64,000 nucleotides of DNA, taken from Lentisphaerae bacterium GWF2_49_21 (GTDB lineage Bacteria; Verrucomicrobiota; Lentisphaeria; Victivallales; GWF2-50-93). A program made the position numbers and the translations under genes. Where the stretch lies: assembly GCA_001804805.1 (NCBI GenBank), contig MHBH01000026.1, forward strand, positions 124,001-188,000. Reading direction: 5' to 3'. Position 1 is the stretch's first letter. The number at the start of each line of letters is the position of its first letter. The notes beneath the pieces are model-generated. The model was given only the letters and a program-made list of their open reading frames with translations. It searched no databases and was not told the origin of the DNA. Shown here one piece after another: positions 5,971 to 10,842 of the stretch.

Positions 5971-7929
5971 ATGAGAAAATCAGTTTCCTCCCGCAAGAAC
6001 ACCCTCCGCCTCCCCTCGATCTTCGGCAGCAACATGGTCCTCCAGCACGGAATGAAATTTCCTGTCTGGGGAAGGTCTACGCCCGGAGACAAAATCACCG
6101 TTGAGTTCTCTGATCAGAAAAGGTCCGCTGTCACAGGTAAAAATGGGAAATGGAGAGTCGTCCTCGATCCAGTTGGCATATCCCGCGAACCTCGCACTAT
6201 GACCATCACCTCTTCAAAAATCTCCAAATCATCAAATCTCCAAATCAAAAATATTCTAGTCGGCGACGTCTGGGTCTGTTCCGGACAGTCGAACATGGAA
6301 TTCTCGCTCAAGCAGAGTATCGGAGCAGAAGAGGCGATTAAGGATTCTGCGAATTCCGCAATCAGGCTTTTTACAGTCCCAAGACTTACGAAGGATGAGC
6401 CTGCAGAGGAATGCGAAGGTTCCTGGAGCGAATGCAATCCGGAAACTGTCCCGCAGTTTTCCGGTGTCGCATATTATTTTGGCAGGGAACTGAACAGGAA
6501 ACTGAATATTCCAATTGGGTTGTTACACACGAGCTGGGGCGGAACCAAGGCTGAAGCATGGACCAGCAGGGAGGCTCTGAAGGAGTTCCCCGAGTTGACA
6601 CATCTGGTCACCCATGATGTTTCAATATACAAAAAGGCACTTGAACCTTTCCGGAAAATCTTCAATTTCACAGCGCCGAAAGGACTGAAGCACGGAGTTG
6701 ACGGTACATTGCCTGATCCCGGCAGGAATCCCGCAACCGCAAAATGGTCGGAACCGGATTTTGACGATTCAAAGTGGATCGAGATGAACACGCCCGGATC
6801 CTGGGAGAGTCAGGGATACATGCTTGACGGAGCAGTATGGTTCAGGAAAAAGATAAAAATACCCTCGTCATGGGAAGGCAGGAATCTCTGCCTGGAGCTA
6901 GGTGCTCTAGACGATTTTGATGTGTCGTTCTTCAACGGCGTGGAAGTCGGACGCACAGGCAAGGAGACGGAAAACTGGTGGTCCACCCCGAGAAGATATT
7001 CGATTCCGGCAAAACTTGCCAAAAAAGGAGAGGCGGTGATCGCGATCAGGATATTCGACCAGTTCATGTCGGGCGGCATGATGGGTCCTGCTGAGAAGAT
7101 GAGGATCTATCCTGTTGGAAAGGAATGCGAGGAGATCAGCCTCAAGGGCAAATGGCTTACAGCCGTCGAACTTGGGATAATTGTCTCTTCTTCGATAAAC
7201 AGCACGAAGCTCTTCAACGCGATGATAAATCCGATTCTGTCACTCGGGATCAAGGGCGCGATCTGGTACCAGGGCTGTTCCAATGCGGACAGGGCCTATC
7301 AGTACAGGAAACTTCTGCCCACGATGATACGCGACTGGCGCAAACGCTGGAACTGCGGCGCATTTCCATTCTATATCGTCCAGCTCGCGAACTACATGCC
7401 CAACCTTGAAATTCCGGCTGAGAGCAGCTGGGCTGAACTCCGTGAGGCGCAGCTTCTGACATCTGTTAAAGTTCCGAACTGCGGGCTGGCAGTGGCAATT
7501 GACATAGGCGACGCAAAGGATATTCATCCAAAAAATAAATATGATGTCGGCCTCAGGCTTGCACTTCAGGCCTTGAAGAAGACTTATGGGAAGAAAGTTG
7601 TCTGCAACGGACCTGTCTACAAGGGAATGACTGTCAAAGGCGATTCGATAATCCTGAAGTTTGAAACTGACGGTACGGCTCTCAAATCTATCGATGGGAA
7701 AAATATCAGGAGCTTTGCAGTTGCTGACTCAAGCAAAAAGTTCTATTGGGCCGATGCGAAGATCGCAGGAAATACAGTCGTTGTCCGTTCAGACAAGGTG
7801 AAGAAACCTGTCGCTGCACGCTATGCCTGGGCCGACAATCCCGAATGCAATTTCGGGAACGACCTTGGACTGCCCGCATCTCCATTCCGCACCGACAACT
7901 GGACCTGCAGCACTAGACACGCGAAATAG
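5971..7929 (+). CDS. Sialate O-acetylesterase family protein
   Basis: 652 residues of the SGNH-type sialate 9-O-acetylesterase family, which removes acetyl groups from sialic or other acetylated sugars. Visible landmarks: N-terminal MVLQHGMKFPVWG, the nucleophile block VCSGQSNMEF (Ser near residue 107), GGTKAEAW, AIWYQGCSNADR (usually WYQGE) and the Asp-His block DIGDAKDIHP. A jelly-roll sugar-binding domain of the beta-galactosidase type is inserted at about residues 250-385. No clear signal peptide is seen (MRKSVSSRKNTLRLPS), so it may be intracellular. SD GGAG precedes the ATG. An odd low-complexity insert made from a repeated 'aatctccaaatc' unit lies at residues ~80-93, just before the nucleophile strand. 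Confidence 0.88.
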   Translation: MRKSVSSRKNTLRLPSIFGSNMVLQHGMKFPVWGRSTPGDKITVEFSDQKRSAVTGKNGKWRVVLDPVGISREPRTMTITSSKISKSSNLQIKNILVGDVWVCSGQSNMEFSLKQSIGAEEAIKDSANSAIRLFTVPRLTKDEPAEECEGSWSECNPETVPQFSGVAYYFGRELNRKLNIPIGLLHTSWGGTKAEAWTSREALKEFPELTHLVTHDVSIYKKALEPFRKIFNFTAPKGLKHGVDGTLPDPGRNPATAKWSEPDFDDSKWIEMNTPGSWESQGYMLDGAVWFRKKIKIPSSWEGRNLCLELGALDDFDVSFFNGVEVGRTGKETENWWSTPRRYSIPAKLAKKGEAVIAIRIFDQFMSGGMMGPAEKMRIYPVGKECEEISLKGKWLTAVELGIIVSSSINSTKLFNAMINPILSLGIKGAIWYQGCSNADRAYQYRKLLPTMIRDWRKRWNCGAFPFYIVQLANYMPNLEIPAESSWAELREAQLLTSVKVPNCGLAVAIDIGDAKDIHPKNKYDVGLRLALQALKKTYGKKVVCNGPVYKGMTVKGDSIILKFETDGTALKSIDGKNIRSFAVADSSKKFYWADAKIAGNTVVVRSDKVKKPVAARYAWADNPECNFGNDLGLPASPFRTDNWTCSTRHAK

Positions 7930-7939
7930 GTTTTTTCTT

Positions 7940-7946
7940 TCTAGGC
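7940..7946 (-). other. Possible truncated attC core after cassette gene 2
   Basis: On the minus strand, GCCTAGA follows the TGA stop of the 201-aa cassette gene, exactly where an attC R'' box (RYYYAAC) should start. The rest of an attC is missing: the next bases are the end of the esterase gene. This looks like the breakpoint of the cassette segment. Confidence 0.3.
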
Positions 7947-7947
7947 A

Positions 7948-8553
7948 TCATTTTTCTTCTAGCTCAAAATGCCATGGGGTTTGTGTCGACAACTTAAGCT
8001 CGAATCCTGAACGGACCAATTGCATAGCTTGAGGTAACACAGGGCGCCCAGGCACTTTCCCTGCAGCCATTCGTTTGCGCAGGTGATACTGGATTTTGCC
8101 TGCGATTTTTTCTAGAGACTCCCATTTCACTCCCTCTTCAACATCCCATTTCTGGGCACGGGCTTCACTCTGACAACCGAAATGAGACATGGTGATGACG
8201 TTGCCGGACACGCCACCAAGATATAACTGCATGAGCCCCCCACTATCAATTCTGTGGCGGAATGTATGGCCGTTACAGGATTCGGGATTGACCGAAAACT
8301 TTTCGATACTGATATTGCTCATAACGGATGGTGACCACAGTTGCAGTAGTACAGCGTTTCCGTTGCCATGTGGATCCTTGCCGAGAGGAAAGGCTTTTGC
8401 CAACTCCTCGGTAGAGTGGAACTCTCTGAGTTCAGTATCAAACTCAGAATATGATTCAAATACCCGAACGTCTGTTTCGGAAAATAAGAAATCTAGGAGC
8501 GCCTTTTGGTCGGCCTCTGCTGCAAAAAAATCAACGTTTACTGCGCGCGACAT
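7948..8553 (-). CDS. Integron-cassette protein, unknown function (201 aa)
   Basis: I do not recognise a catalytic domain. The N-terminus (VDFFAAEADQKALLDFLFSETDVRVFESYSEFD) and the internal FPLGKDPHGNG, LQLYLGG-like and KVPGRPVLPQA segments read as a compact soluble protein, with no signal peptide or membrane segment. The ATG lies 16 bases after the attC site and has AGGTGG about 7 bases upstream, the usual arrangement in an integron gene cassette. Its stop is followed by a possible truncated attC. Composition and codon choice differ from the flanking speA and esterase genes, supporting acquisition. A role in immunity or adaptation is only a guess from cassette context. Confidence 0.75.
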   Translation of the reverse strand: MSRAVNVDFFAAEADQKALLDFLFSETDVRVFESYSEFDTELREFHSTEELAKAFPLGKDPHGNGNAVLLQLWSPSVMSNISIEKFSVNPESCNGHTFRHRIDSGGLMQLYLGGVSGNVITMSHFGCQSEARAQKWDVEEGVKWESLEKIAGKIQYHLRKRMAAGKVPGRPVLPQAMQLVRSGFELKLSTQTPWHFELEEK

Positions 8554-8569
8554 TCTTTGACCACCTGAT

Positions 8570-8629
8570 GCCTAACGCCTCATAGTCTGGCAACGAGCGA
8601 AGCGAAGTTGCCAGCAAGTCTAGTTAGGC
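8570..8629 (-). mobile_element. attC: Integron attC recombination site (60 bp)
   Basis: Read on the minus strand the site starts GCCTAAC (RYYYAAC) and ends GTTAGGC (GTTRRRY), the two complementary core boxes of an attC. Inside, CTGGCAAC and GTTGCCAG form the inner L'/L'' arms around a 12-base centre. Total length is 60 bases, matching a classic '59-base element'. The stop codon (TAA) of the upstream gene lies inside the first box and the next gene's ATG lies 16 bases beyond the second, as in genuine gene cassettes. No integrase gene is in the window, so this is a CALIN-type remnant. Confidence 0.85.
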
Positions 8630-8977
8630 ATTTCCTTCTAGTTCATATTTCTCAGCAACAATCTCACACCATTCGTCTTCATTTGTTGAGACAACATAGT
8701 GGTGAAGCGTTTCTTGTGTCGAGGCTGTAGAGTCTTCTCTTAGTTTTTTTATTACTTCAGAATCTGTAATTTCTAGGACCGTGGCTTCTGGCAACCCTTT
8801 ATACCCGTTTGCCAGTTGATGGAGGAAAAGATACACAGTATGGAATTTAAAAACAATATTTCGGTTTCTCCAATCAACAAATGAAAGTATTACCGATTGG
8901 TTGTCATTTGAATGGTAACAGAACCCTCCCTCAGGATCATTCAAGTCAATATTTTGTTCAATTTTCTTATAGTTCAT
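8624..8977 (-). CDS. Integron-cassette protein, unknown function (117 aa)
   Basis: A small soluble protein (MNYKKIEQNIDLNDPEG...EKYELEGNA) that I do not recognise. It is acidic, with aromatic-rich beta-like segments (VILSFVDWRNRNIVFKFHTVYLFLHQL), and has no signal or membrane segment. It is markedly A/T-rich compared with its neighbours. Its stop codon overlaps the attC site and its ATG lies 6 bases after a GTTAGGC core at 8984-8990, so the whole gene is one cassette. The AGG of that core may serve as its ribosome-binding site. Confidence 0.75.
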   Translation of the reverse strand: MNYKKIEQNIDLNDPEGGFCYHSNDNQSVILSFVDWRNRNIVFKFHTVYLFLHQLANGYKGLPEATVLEITDSEVIKKLREDSTASTQETLHHYVVSTNEDEWCEIVAEKYELEGNA

Positions 8978-8983
8978 AATCTT

Positions 8984-9044
8984 GCCTAACTTCTTATTAT
9001 GCTGTTCCCCATAAGCAGGGTATCGAAATTACAATTTTGTAGGC
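8984..9044 (-). mobile_element. Possible degraded attC or attI site
   Basis: On the minus strand a GTTAGGC core (8984-8990) precedes the 117-aa gene. A degenerate GCCTACA box lies 54 bases upstream (9038-9044). Inner symmetry is poor (CTTATG/CATAA). It could be a worn attC or the attI end of a lost integron. Confidence 0.35.
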
Positions 9045-9143
9045 CTCTCCCCGGATTTAGCCTCAAGCCTGTCATCCTATGTATATAAGACTTAGGGTGA
9101 AACAGCCTATGCAGTGTAAAATAGACCACAACAGGCCATGAGT

Positions 9144-9353
9144 TCAACGATCTTTGTGGTTTTTTGATTTGCGATAGTATTTCTCTACGACCTTCTTTTT
9201 CTCAGGATCCCAGACGACGAGGGGTCTGCCTGTGCGGCGGCATTCCTCCTTGAGCTTGTTTACGGCGTCAGTAAGCGCCTTTAGGGCATATTTCCCGGGA
9301 TCTGAATAATCAATGGGTTCTTCAACAGGCAATGATTTGGTTATTTTTCTCAT
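9144..9353 (-). CDS. Small antitoxin-like hypothetical protein (69 aa)
   Basis: Charged 69-residue protein with the pattern 'ALKALTDAVNKLKEECRRTGRPLVVWDPEKKKVVEKYY'. This resembles a widespread class of small, solitary or toxin-linked proteins with 'A...H/ECRRTGRPLxVW...KVV'. There is no partner toxin beside it. No strong SD is seen; an A/T-rich TATATTATG sequence precedes the start. It lies just beyond the cassette segment and may belong to the same acquired patch. The functional assignment is tentative. Confidence 0.55.
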   Translation of the reverse strand: MRKITKSLPVEEPIDYSDPGKYALKALTDAVNKLKEECRRTGRPLVVWDPEKKKVVEKYYRKSKNHKDR

Positions 9354-9480
9354 AATATAGCTAAATATAAAACATTTTTTGAAGAATTAAAGTTGCTGCC
9401 GGATTCTTCTTCTATATTCCTCTATAATTTACTTTTGCTTGGAATATGCTAGTTTTATAGGTTTCAACAAGAGAGGTCAA

Positions 9481-10842
9481 ATGGAGAAAAATAGCAAATT
9501 TAAAAGAAAGAAGCTGCTGATACTTTTCACGGCAGTTCTTGTTTTCGTAGTAGCCTACGTTGCCTATTTCCTGGTTCTCGAATACAAGATTCACTCCAAG
9601 GCGCGCGAGATCCGCAATACCGGTTATCCGTCTAATCCGGAGGAACTGGATAAATGGTATCTTGAACCTCCATCCGGACAGAATGCCGCCGAATTTTATC
9701 TTGAAGCCTTTAAGAATTTTGTCAGCAAACCGGAAAATGTCGATGAAAAAATCCTGATAATATGTGGTTCAGGGGAAATCCCGGCTATTGGCGGAATAAT
9801 TCCAGCGGATGTATTGGAAAACGCTAAAAAATATCTTTTGGCAAACAGGAAAGCAATAGATCTTCTCCATAAGGCTACTGCATTGAAAACATGCAGGTTT
9901 CCGGTAGAACTGAAGGATGCTGAACGCAAACTTACCTACCATTCGAATCTCCGACAGGCGGCGAAGCTTCTCTACTTGGATGCGCTGGTGTCAGCCGAAC
10001 AAGGGGACAATGCAAAGGCATTTGAATCCGCAATGGACTCCTGCAGGCTTGCCTCGTCTCTTGAAAATGAGCCTCTGCCTGATGCCTTCATGGTTCAGAT
10101 GGCATTGGAGCATATCGCCTTGGACAACGTTGAAAGACTGCTTGTGAAAGGATGCTTTGATGAAAAACAGCTCAAGCTGATTGGTCAGGAAATATCACGG
10201 TTCGAGGAAATGAAATCGCTTGAACGGGCATATGCGGGAGAGAGAAGCCTTGTGCTCTCGGAATATTATCTCGAGGAATTCATGGAATATGCAGTCTATG
10301 ATTTTCCAGGATTTGTGAGGAAGAGCCATTTCCTGAAGCAAATTGTCTTTTTCCTTTTTGATGCCTCCCTCCTGAGGATGAACAATAATCTGTCATGCAT
10401 CGGCTTCCTATCCGAACTGGTTGAGCTTTCAAAGGGAAAACCTGAGGATGTCAATGAGAAGATGAACAAGATTGATGAGAGGATAATGAATCTTCCTGGA
10501 TACCTCTTTGCCGTAAAGATTTATATGCCTCACCTGTGTTCGATAACAGACAAGAAAATTCTTCTGGTTTCACGGGCGAGAGCTGTACGAACCGCTGTCG
10601 CAGTGGAATCTTATCGGATGAAAAACGGAAAAATCCCTGAGGATCTTGCCCTTCTCGCCCCAGGATATCTTGATTCGATTCCAGTAGATCCCGTCAATGG
10701 CAGACAGGTCCGTTACAAGAAGGATGACAAGGGATTTGTAGTCTATAGTACCGGAGCCGACGGTCAGGACAACAACGGCAATACCGGCTCAAACAGGGGA
10801 TTTTCTCAGGGAGAGGATTTTTCCGTTAGGATCGCCAGATGA
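9481..10842 (+). CDS. Membrane-anchored protein with prepilin-like C-terminal tail, unknown function
   Basis: 453 residues from the ATG at 9481 (MEKNSKFKRKK), chosen because GAGAGG lies 5 bases upstream; an earlier in-frame ATG at 9439 has no SD. A single N-terminal membrane segment (about residues 10-32) is followed by a long helical extracytoplasmic domain. The C-terminus reads 'VESYRMKNGKIPEDLALLAPGYLDSIPVDPVNGRQVRY...YSTGADGQDNNG', the ending seen in type II secretion pseudopilin-like and related proteins of Planctomycetes and Lentisphaerae. The function is unknown. Confidence 0.7.
   Translation: MEKNSKFKRKKLLILFTAVLVFVVAYVAYFLVLEYKIHSKAREIRNTGYPSNPEELDKWYLEPPSGQNAAEFYLEAFKNFVSKPENVDEKILIICGSGEIPAIGGIIPADVLENAKKYLLANRKAIDLLHKATALKTCRFPVELKDAERKLTYHSNLRQAAKLLYLDALVSAEQGDNAKAFESAMDSCRLASSLENEPLPDAFMVQMALEHIALDNVERLLVKGCFDEKQLKLIGQEISRFEEMKSLERAYAGERSLVLSEYYLEEFMEYAVYDFPGFVRKSHFLKQIVFFLFDASLLRMNNNLSCIGFLSELVELSKGKPEDVNEKMNKIDERIMNLPGYLFAVKIYMPHLCSITDKKILLVSRARAVRTAVAVESYRMKNGKIPEDLALLAPGYLDSIPVDPVNGRQVRYKKDDKGFVVYSTGADGQDNNGNTGSNRGFSQGEDFSVRIAR

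Follow-up and report, generated by a model that had tools for sequence, protein, structure and literature searches.

A repeated leader of about 165 bp, dispersed over the genomes of a Lentisphaerae bacterium and two congeners, probably provides integrase-less, attI-like sites at which gene cassettes are captured by an integron integrase (IntI) acting in trans; the action of IntI is what we infer from sequence comparison. In the usual picture, there is one attI per integrase, and arrays without intI are decay products or off-target insertions. Here, a repeated attI-like leader underlies the arrays without intI, whose contents vary from species to species.

The starting point was a window, that is, the whole stretch of 64 kb that was analysed. 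It is part of contig C26 of a metagenome-assembled genome (MAG) of 5.9 Mb in 91 contigs (G000). All the genomes compared are draft assemblies, mostly MAGs, in which the arrays at intI break off at contig ends, leaving the assembly incomplete at these points. On the minus strand of the window, the leader is followed by its junction with a cassette, a 117-aa gene, an attC, a 201-aa gene and the remnant of a second attC (Table 1).

Table 1. Features of the window locus and of related loci.
Feature	Position	Strand	Basis or remark
Leader (attI-like, promoter-like)	8987..9152	-	match to leader model R1 at 8986-9152, 141 bits
Putative promoter pair	9118..9147	-	TTGAAC 9147-9142, spacer 18, TATTTT 9123-9118
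attI-like core CATAATAAGAA (9001-8991) and junction G8990^TTAGGC	8984..9001	-	leader homology ends here; GTTAGGC at 8990-8984
Cassette 1	8576..8989	-	first T past the junction to the G of R'; bounds are the G^TT at the leader and in the attC
117-aa gene, cassette 1	8624..8977	-	ORF
attC of cassette 1	8570..8629	-	model R3; fold; R'' GCCTAAC 8629-8623, R' GTTAGGC 8576-8570
201-aa gene, cassette 2	7948..8553	-	ORF
R'' remnant TGCCTAG, truncated attC of cassette 2	7941..7947	-	read by eye
Orthologous leader pair 1	window / G001:C10:60.5 kb		
Orthologous leader pair 2	C26:47.7 kb / G001:C44		
Orthologous leader pair 3	C58 / G001:C10:26 kb		only the left flank shared
N-terminally extended IntI	L013 9232-10515; L014 2443-3753; L015 1131-2621		
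Cassette of ~230 bp, G000	L016 8018-8316; L185; L190; L163		
Cassette of ~230 bp, relatives	G002 L204, L207, L209, L210; G001 L197; G003 L221, L218, L220; G007 L224		
Toxin-antitoxin-like cassettes	L164 123-628; L169 8471-8994; L167 8462-9047; L157 7967-8518		
Neighbourhood of the 69-aa ORF	G001 L043 4147-5344; window 9144-9353		

The window carries genuine integron gene cassettes. A sequence-only reading had described two genes of the same orientation linked by a 60-bp attC, with the stop of the first inside the attC, the start of the second 16 bases beyond it and an extra GTTAGGC core ahead of the first gene. Each of these points was borne out, and the stop was placed in R''. The same reading took the outer sites to be truncated or decayed. 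This is right for the end of cassette 2, where the TGCCTAG remnant agrees with the expected GCCTAAC in GCCTA only and lies about 12 bp past the stop of a sialic-acid-specific acetylesterase-like gene. The upstream GTTAGGC, in contrast, is the junction of leader and cassette. A decayed attC was ruled out at this point, as the preceding sequence is the repeated leader; the GTTAGGC itself complements the R'' of the attC that belongs to cassette 1. No Rfam family matched window positions 7000-10000.

The attC of cassette 1 has R'' and R' with AAC...GTT and a covarying inner hairpin, the inner arms being CTGGCAAC (L'') and GTTGCCAG (L'). It was matched with 49.6 bits (E 6e-11), as the sole match in the 64 kb, by an independent covariance model (R3) built from 15 sites of other arrays of the genus, with the window site and the leader-linked sites left out. 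The pattern GCCTAACN20-50GTTAGGC is found a single time in the 5.9-Mb genome; its reversed control is absent. The folding of the site is better than that of shuffled sequences (z -3.1 on the plus strand and -2.3 on the minus strand). Over 24 attC sites, the inner helix covaries with a score of 0.275, compared with 0.144 in shuffles (0 of 500 as high), and this score is well above that of slid registers. The model and the folding had both been proposed as checks by the sequence-only reading, together with a search for further attC sites, which found arrays of the same attC type beside IntI genes.

The two cassette proteins belong to no Pfam or PADLOC family, and the one NCBIfam match is at chance level (blaPER, 17 bits versus a cut-off of 650). 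Among 388 genomes of the phylum, relatives of the 117-aa protein were found in two, and the 201-aa protein has one distant relative. The latter comes from another family of the phylum and has no obvious attC in its flank as judged by eye.

The leader ends at CATAATAAGAA^GTT, which resembles attI cores. A DNA search with positions 9150-8978 picked up numerous copies in G000, G001 and G003; G002 and 17 more distant relatives gave none. A profile search of 31 genomes yielded 18 matches in G000, 9 in G001 and 4 in G003, some of them partial or split, and no match in the 28 other relatives. Copies with an intact 3' end number about 17 in G000, 7-8 in G001 and 4-5 in G003, where the count takes in G003:C783, recognised by eye from its cassette. 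A GTDB-wide scan with an exact leader pattern, which misses variants, was positive for Lentisphaerae bacterium GWF2_50_93 only. There is a main type (about 14 copies in G000), and there are diverged types (C28, C23, C71 and others) of the same layout.

The invariant or nearly invariant parts of the leader include TTGA, TGGTCTATTTT and GAGGCTAAATC. In the alignment, TTGA and TGGTCTATTTT fit a -35/-10 pair with a spacing of 18. The family consensus TTGACT/18/TATTTT is conserved, with TTGAAC as the -35 element of the window copy; a simple promoter scan made no call for the window pair. The leader may well carry a promoter. With a weak consensus fold (-5.1 kcal/mol) that shows hardly any covariation, it was rejected as a structured RNA or riboswitch. 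The homology between leaders stops at G^TT, and in most copies an unrelated gene starts some 10-30 bp further on. Some crossover points are mutated (ATT, GCT) and some attC sites behind leaders are decayed, so several of these loci may be inactive.

Several neighbours of the leader were recorded by eye. At G003:C451 (L095/L173 3500-3612), the sequence immediately past the leader GTT resembles the 5' end of a group II (IIC-like) intron, and an intron-like end follows a leader cassette in G000:C5 (L083 590-710). A 340-aa helix-turn-helix/zeta-toxin-like gene stands ahead of the leader-adjoining 69-aa ORF in G001; it is not in the window.

Most leaders are followed by a gene and an attC. Across the 460 kb of leader loci, 16 matches to the independent attC model have E<0.005, all of them behind a leader and on the same strand. 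Of the 15 G000 leaders whose downstream sequence is long enough, nine have a model attC no further than 1 kb away, compared with 0.07 expected, and decayed or truncated attC sites are visible by eye behind further leaders.

In a cassette circle, the 3' part of the cassette and the first bases of that cassette together form the attC. Consequently, if an insertion point is genuine, the bases past it must complement the R'' of the cassette inserted there. Ten of 13 junction pairs, those read automatically by a script, are perfect in the four variable positions. In total, 45 of 52 letters match, while the mean of shuffles is 21 and none of 20,000 shuffles was as good. Of the three imperfect pairs, one (L174) had been read in the wrong register and is perfect in the correct one; the L170 pair, skipped by the script, is also perfect. 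More perfect junctions (C43, C23, G001:C98, G001:C20) come from a targeted search and carry less weight. Read from these bases, the junction of leader and cassette is a product of the attI x attC type. The same complementarity gives strong support to recombination having taken place at the leader end.

Three leaders stand at orthologous places in G000 and in a second species, G001, and carry different cassettes. In DNA comparisons, flank and leader align and the cassettes do not. At the window locus, G001 has kept the leader and flanks and has other cassettes with their own attC. In G003, speA directly adjoins the 467-aa gene, with neither leader nor cassette. The sequence-only reading would have been contradicted by conservation of the two genes here in relatives without attC sequences, and these two genomes gave no such case. 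The G001 cassette at the window locus is 93.6% identical to one behind the diverged leader of G003:C783, and the cassette behind the G000:C61 leader is 90% identical to a G002 cassette, with the match beginning at the leader boundary. The same cassettes are also found elsewhere without this leader. On the evidence of these comparisons, cassettes move independently of the leader.

These comparisons bear on two other explanations. Leader and cassette could have spread jointly as one transposable unit, with the attC as a mere passenger, and the unit is indeed present in one species and absent in another at the window locus (G003) and at G001:C98 versus G000:C77. This is highly improbable given that orthologous leaders have different cassettes, that the same cassettes occur without this leader and that the junction bases belong to the cassette. 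Alternatively, IntI could have inserted cassettes off target at attG-type sites, and an unrelated repeat would happen to end in a good G^TT. The likeness of the leader core to attI is short, and insertion at attG by IntI is described in work cited in passages of PMC12901181 and PMC12444791. Nevertheless, every insertion point has the same 130-170 bp ahead of it, most leader copies are occupied, and the contents have changed at orthologous copies, which means that the same point was used repeatedly. An off-target origin is therefore quite improbable.

Two kinds of cassettes recur. One, about 230 bp long and lacking an obvious gene, has R'' TTTTAAC together with AAAGAGATTATCTCACAGAGCCACAAAGG or a variant and is often alone. 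Its many copies in several genomes of the family make it a dispersed, non-coding, solitary cassette. Several other cassettes contain toxin-antitoxin-like pairs (RHH/RelE-like and BrnT/BrnA-like, by eye) and are shared between species with 82-92% DNA identity.

In G000, three IntI exceed the curated cut-off (C21, C52 and C78) and a fourth (C35) is truncated; each is near a contig end with its array pointing away. The C52 array has one attC with arms and loop almost equal to those of the window attC. Neither the first 17 kb of the window nor the leader loci searched showed any similarity to IntI, and the matches over the cut-off in the whole genome are on contigs other than that of the window. 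The window locus is therefore integrase-less locally but not genome-wide, since IntI genes lie on other contigs. The earlier description of cassettes without an integrase, CALIN-like, in a chromosomal gap is thus correct for the locus and incomplete for the genome; the intI search it had suggested found none near the window but three full genes and one truncated gene elsewhere.

The three full IntI are 427-496 aa long and are extended at the N-terminus by some 100 aa or more ahead of the IntI model region. At a contig end of G000:C17, there is an array of about 11 attC (L189 6098-10273) with no intI within the examined stretch; it may connect to an intI contig. A second type of attI-like end, CGTATAATAACA^GTT or a similar sequence, stands ahead of integrase-less attC sites of G000 at L187 (C13), L188 (C17:1113) and L185 (C76). 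This end resembles the intI-adjacent attI; no intI similarity was found in the stretches examined.

The main rival is independent loss of intI at each locus, in which case the leaders would be relics of separate complete integrons of one family. Loss of intI does occur, as indicated by truncated or fragmentary IntI at C35, G001:C78, G001:C50 and G002:C79. The integrase-less G000 sites with a core of the intI-adjacent type (C13, C17:1113, C76) also speak for this rival. However, leader loci show no trace of intI in the stretches searched, while true remnants are visible at other sites. The leader model does not match the intI-adjacent regions, the orthologous loci in the second species also lack intI, and about 17 parallel losses would be needed. 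This rival is weakened and is considered rather unlikely.

The likeness between the leader and the intI-adjacent attI is limited to about 10 bp. The core before G^TT is AACCGCATAATAAGAA in the leader, GCAACGCCTAATAACA at C35, ATTTCGTAGAATAACA at G001:C78 and ATTCCTTATAAATACA at C21; published cores are AAACAAA^GTT (attI1) and AATAAAAT^GTT (attI2) (PMC12901181). Outside the core, the leader is unlike the intI-adjacent regions. As at an attI, the cassette is joined at G^TT, and the following bases come from the cassette, according to the junction complementarity. The leader is not classed as a canonical attI because it is not immediately beside intI. It nonetheless seems to work like an attI with a Pc.

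Among known systems, attI is described as lying immediately beside intI, and CALINs are integrase-less attC clusters that can be used in trans (PMC9668308, PMC12444791, PMC9024848). The window locus resembles a CALIN in its attC-bearing cassettes, usable by IntI in trans, with no intI nearby. By default, IntegronFinder 2 requires at least two attC for a CALIN, and single-attC CALINs are allowed as possible true positives (PMC9024848); the window has one intact attC and a truncated remnant. CALINs are usually read as degraded or detached arrays, whereas the window type builds on a repeated attI-like leader that carries a promoter-like pair, and it often has only one or two attC. With the attI and Pc of a complete integron, it shares the G^TT crossover, the A/T-rich core before it, the promoter-like pair upstream and cassettes that point away. 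It differs in its many copies per genome and in its position away from intI, so intI, attI and array do not stand together as in a complete integron. The sites called attG, as far as the passages citing them in PMC12901181 and PMC12444791 describe them, also receive cassettes at chromosomal places away from the integron; they have a short consensus only, whereas the leaders share about 130-170 bp of homology and are reused. Delta-attI-type cassettes of class 1 and 2 integrons likewise have attI sequence away from its normal place, but these are attI fragments that replace attC at the cassette 3' end inside an integron (PMC12901181), while the leaders are independent. In the literature searched, which left most subscription journals outside, no description of multi-copy integrase-less attI leaders was found, and queries for orphan or multiple attI gave irrelevant matches only.

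The preferred reading, capture at dispersed attI-like sites, would work as follows. The platform would consist of the leader with its promoter-like pair and the crossover point CATAATAAGAA^GTT, followed in the window by two captured cassettes, of which the second has lost part of its attC. Each copy of the leader would be a separate chromosomal docking site. IntI encoded elsewhere (three full genes) would excise cassettes as attC circles and insert them at the leader G^TT, downstream of the leader promoter. Recombination by the IntI of G000 in trans, the activity of the promoter and the manner of leader spread are what we infer from this arrangement. We lean slightly towards the broader proposal of a distributed integron, in which about 17 dispersed attI-like sites, each bearing a promoter, share a few IntI, cassettes can be taken up in an expressed first position at many chromosomal places simultaneously, and the docking site itself spreads.

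If this is true, such a genome can give each of many cassettes a promoter of its own directly upstream. The origin of CALINs would gain another route, and the function of attI would be open to study by the comparison of many natural copies.
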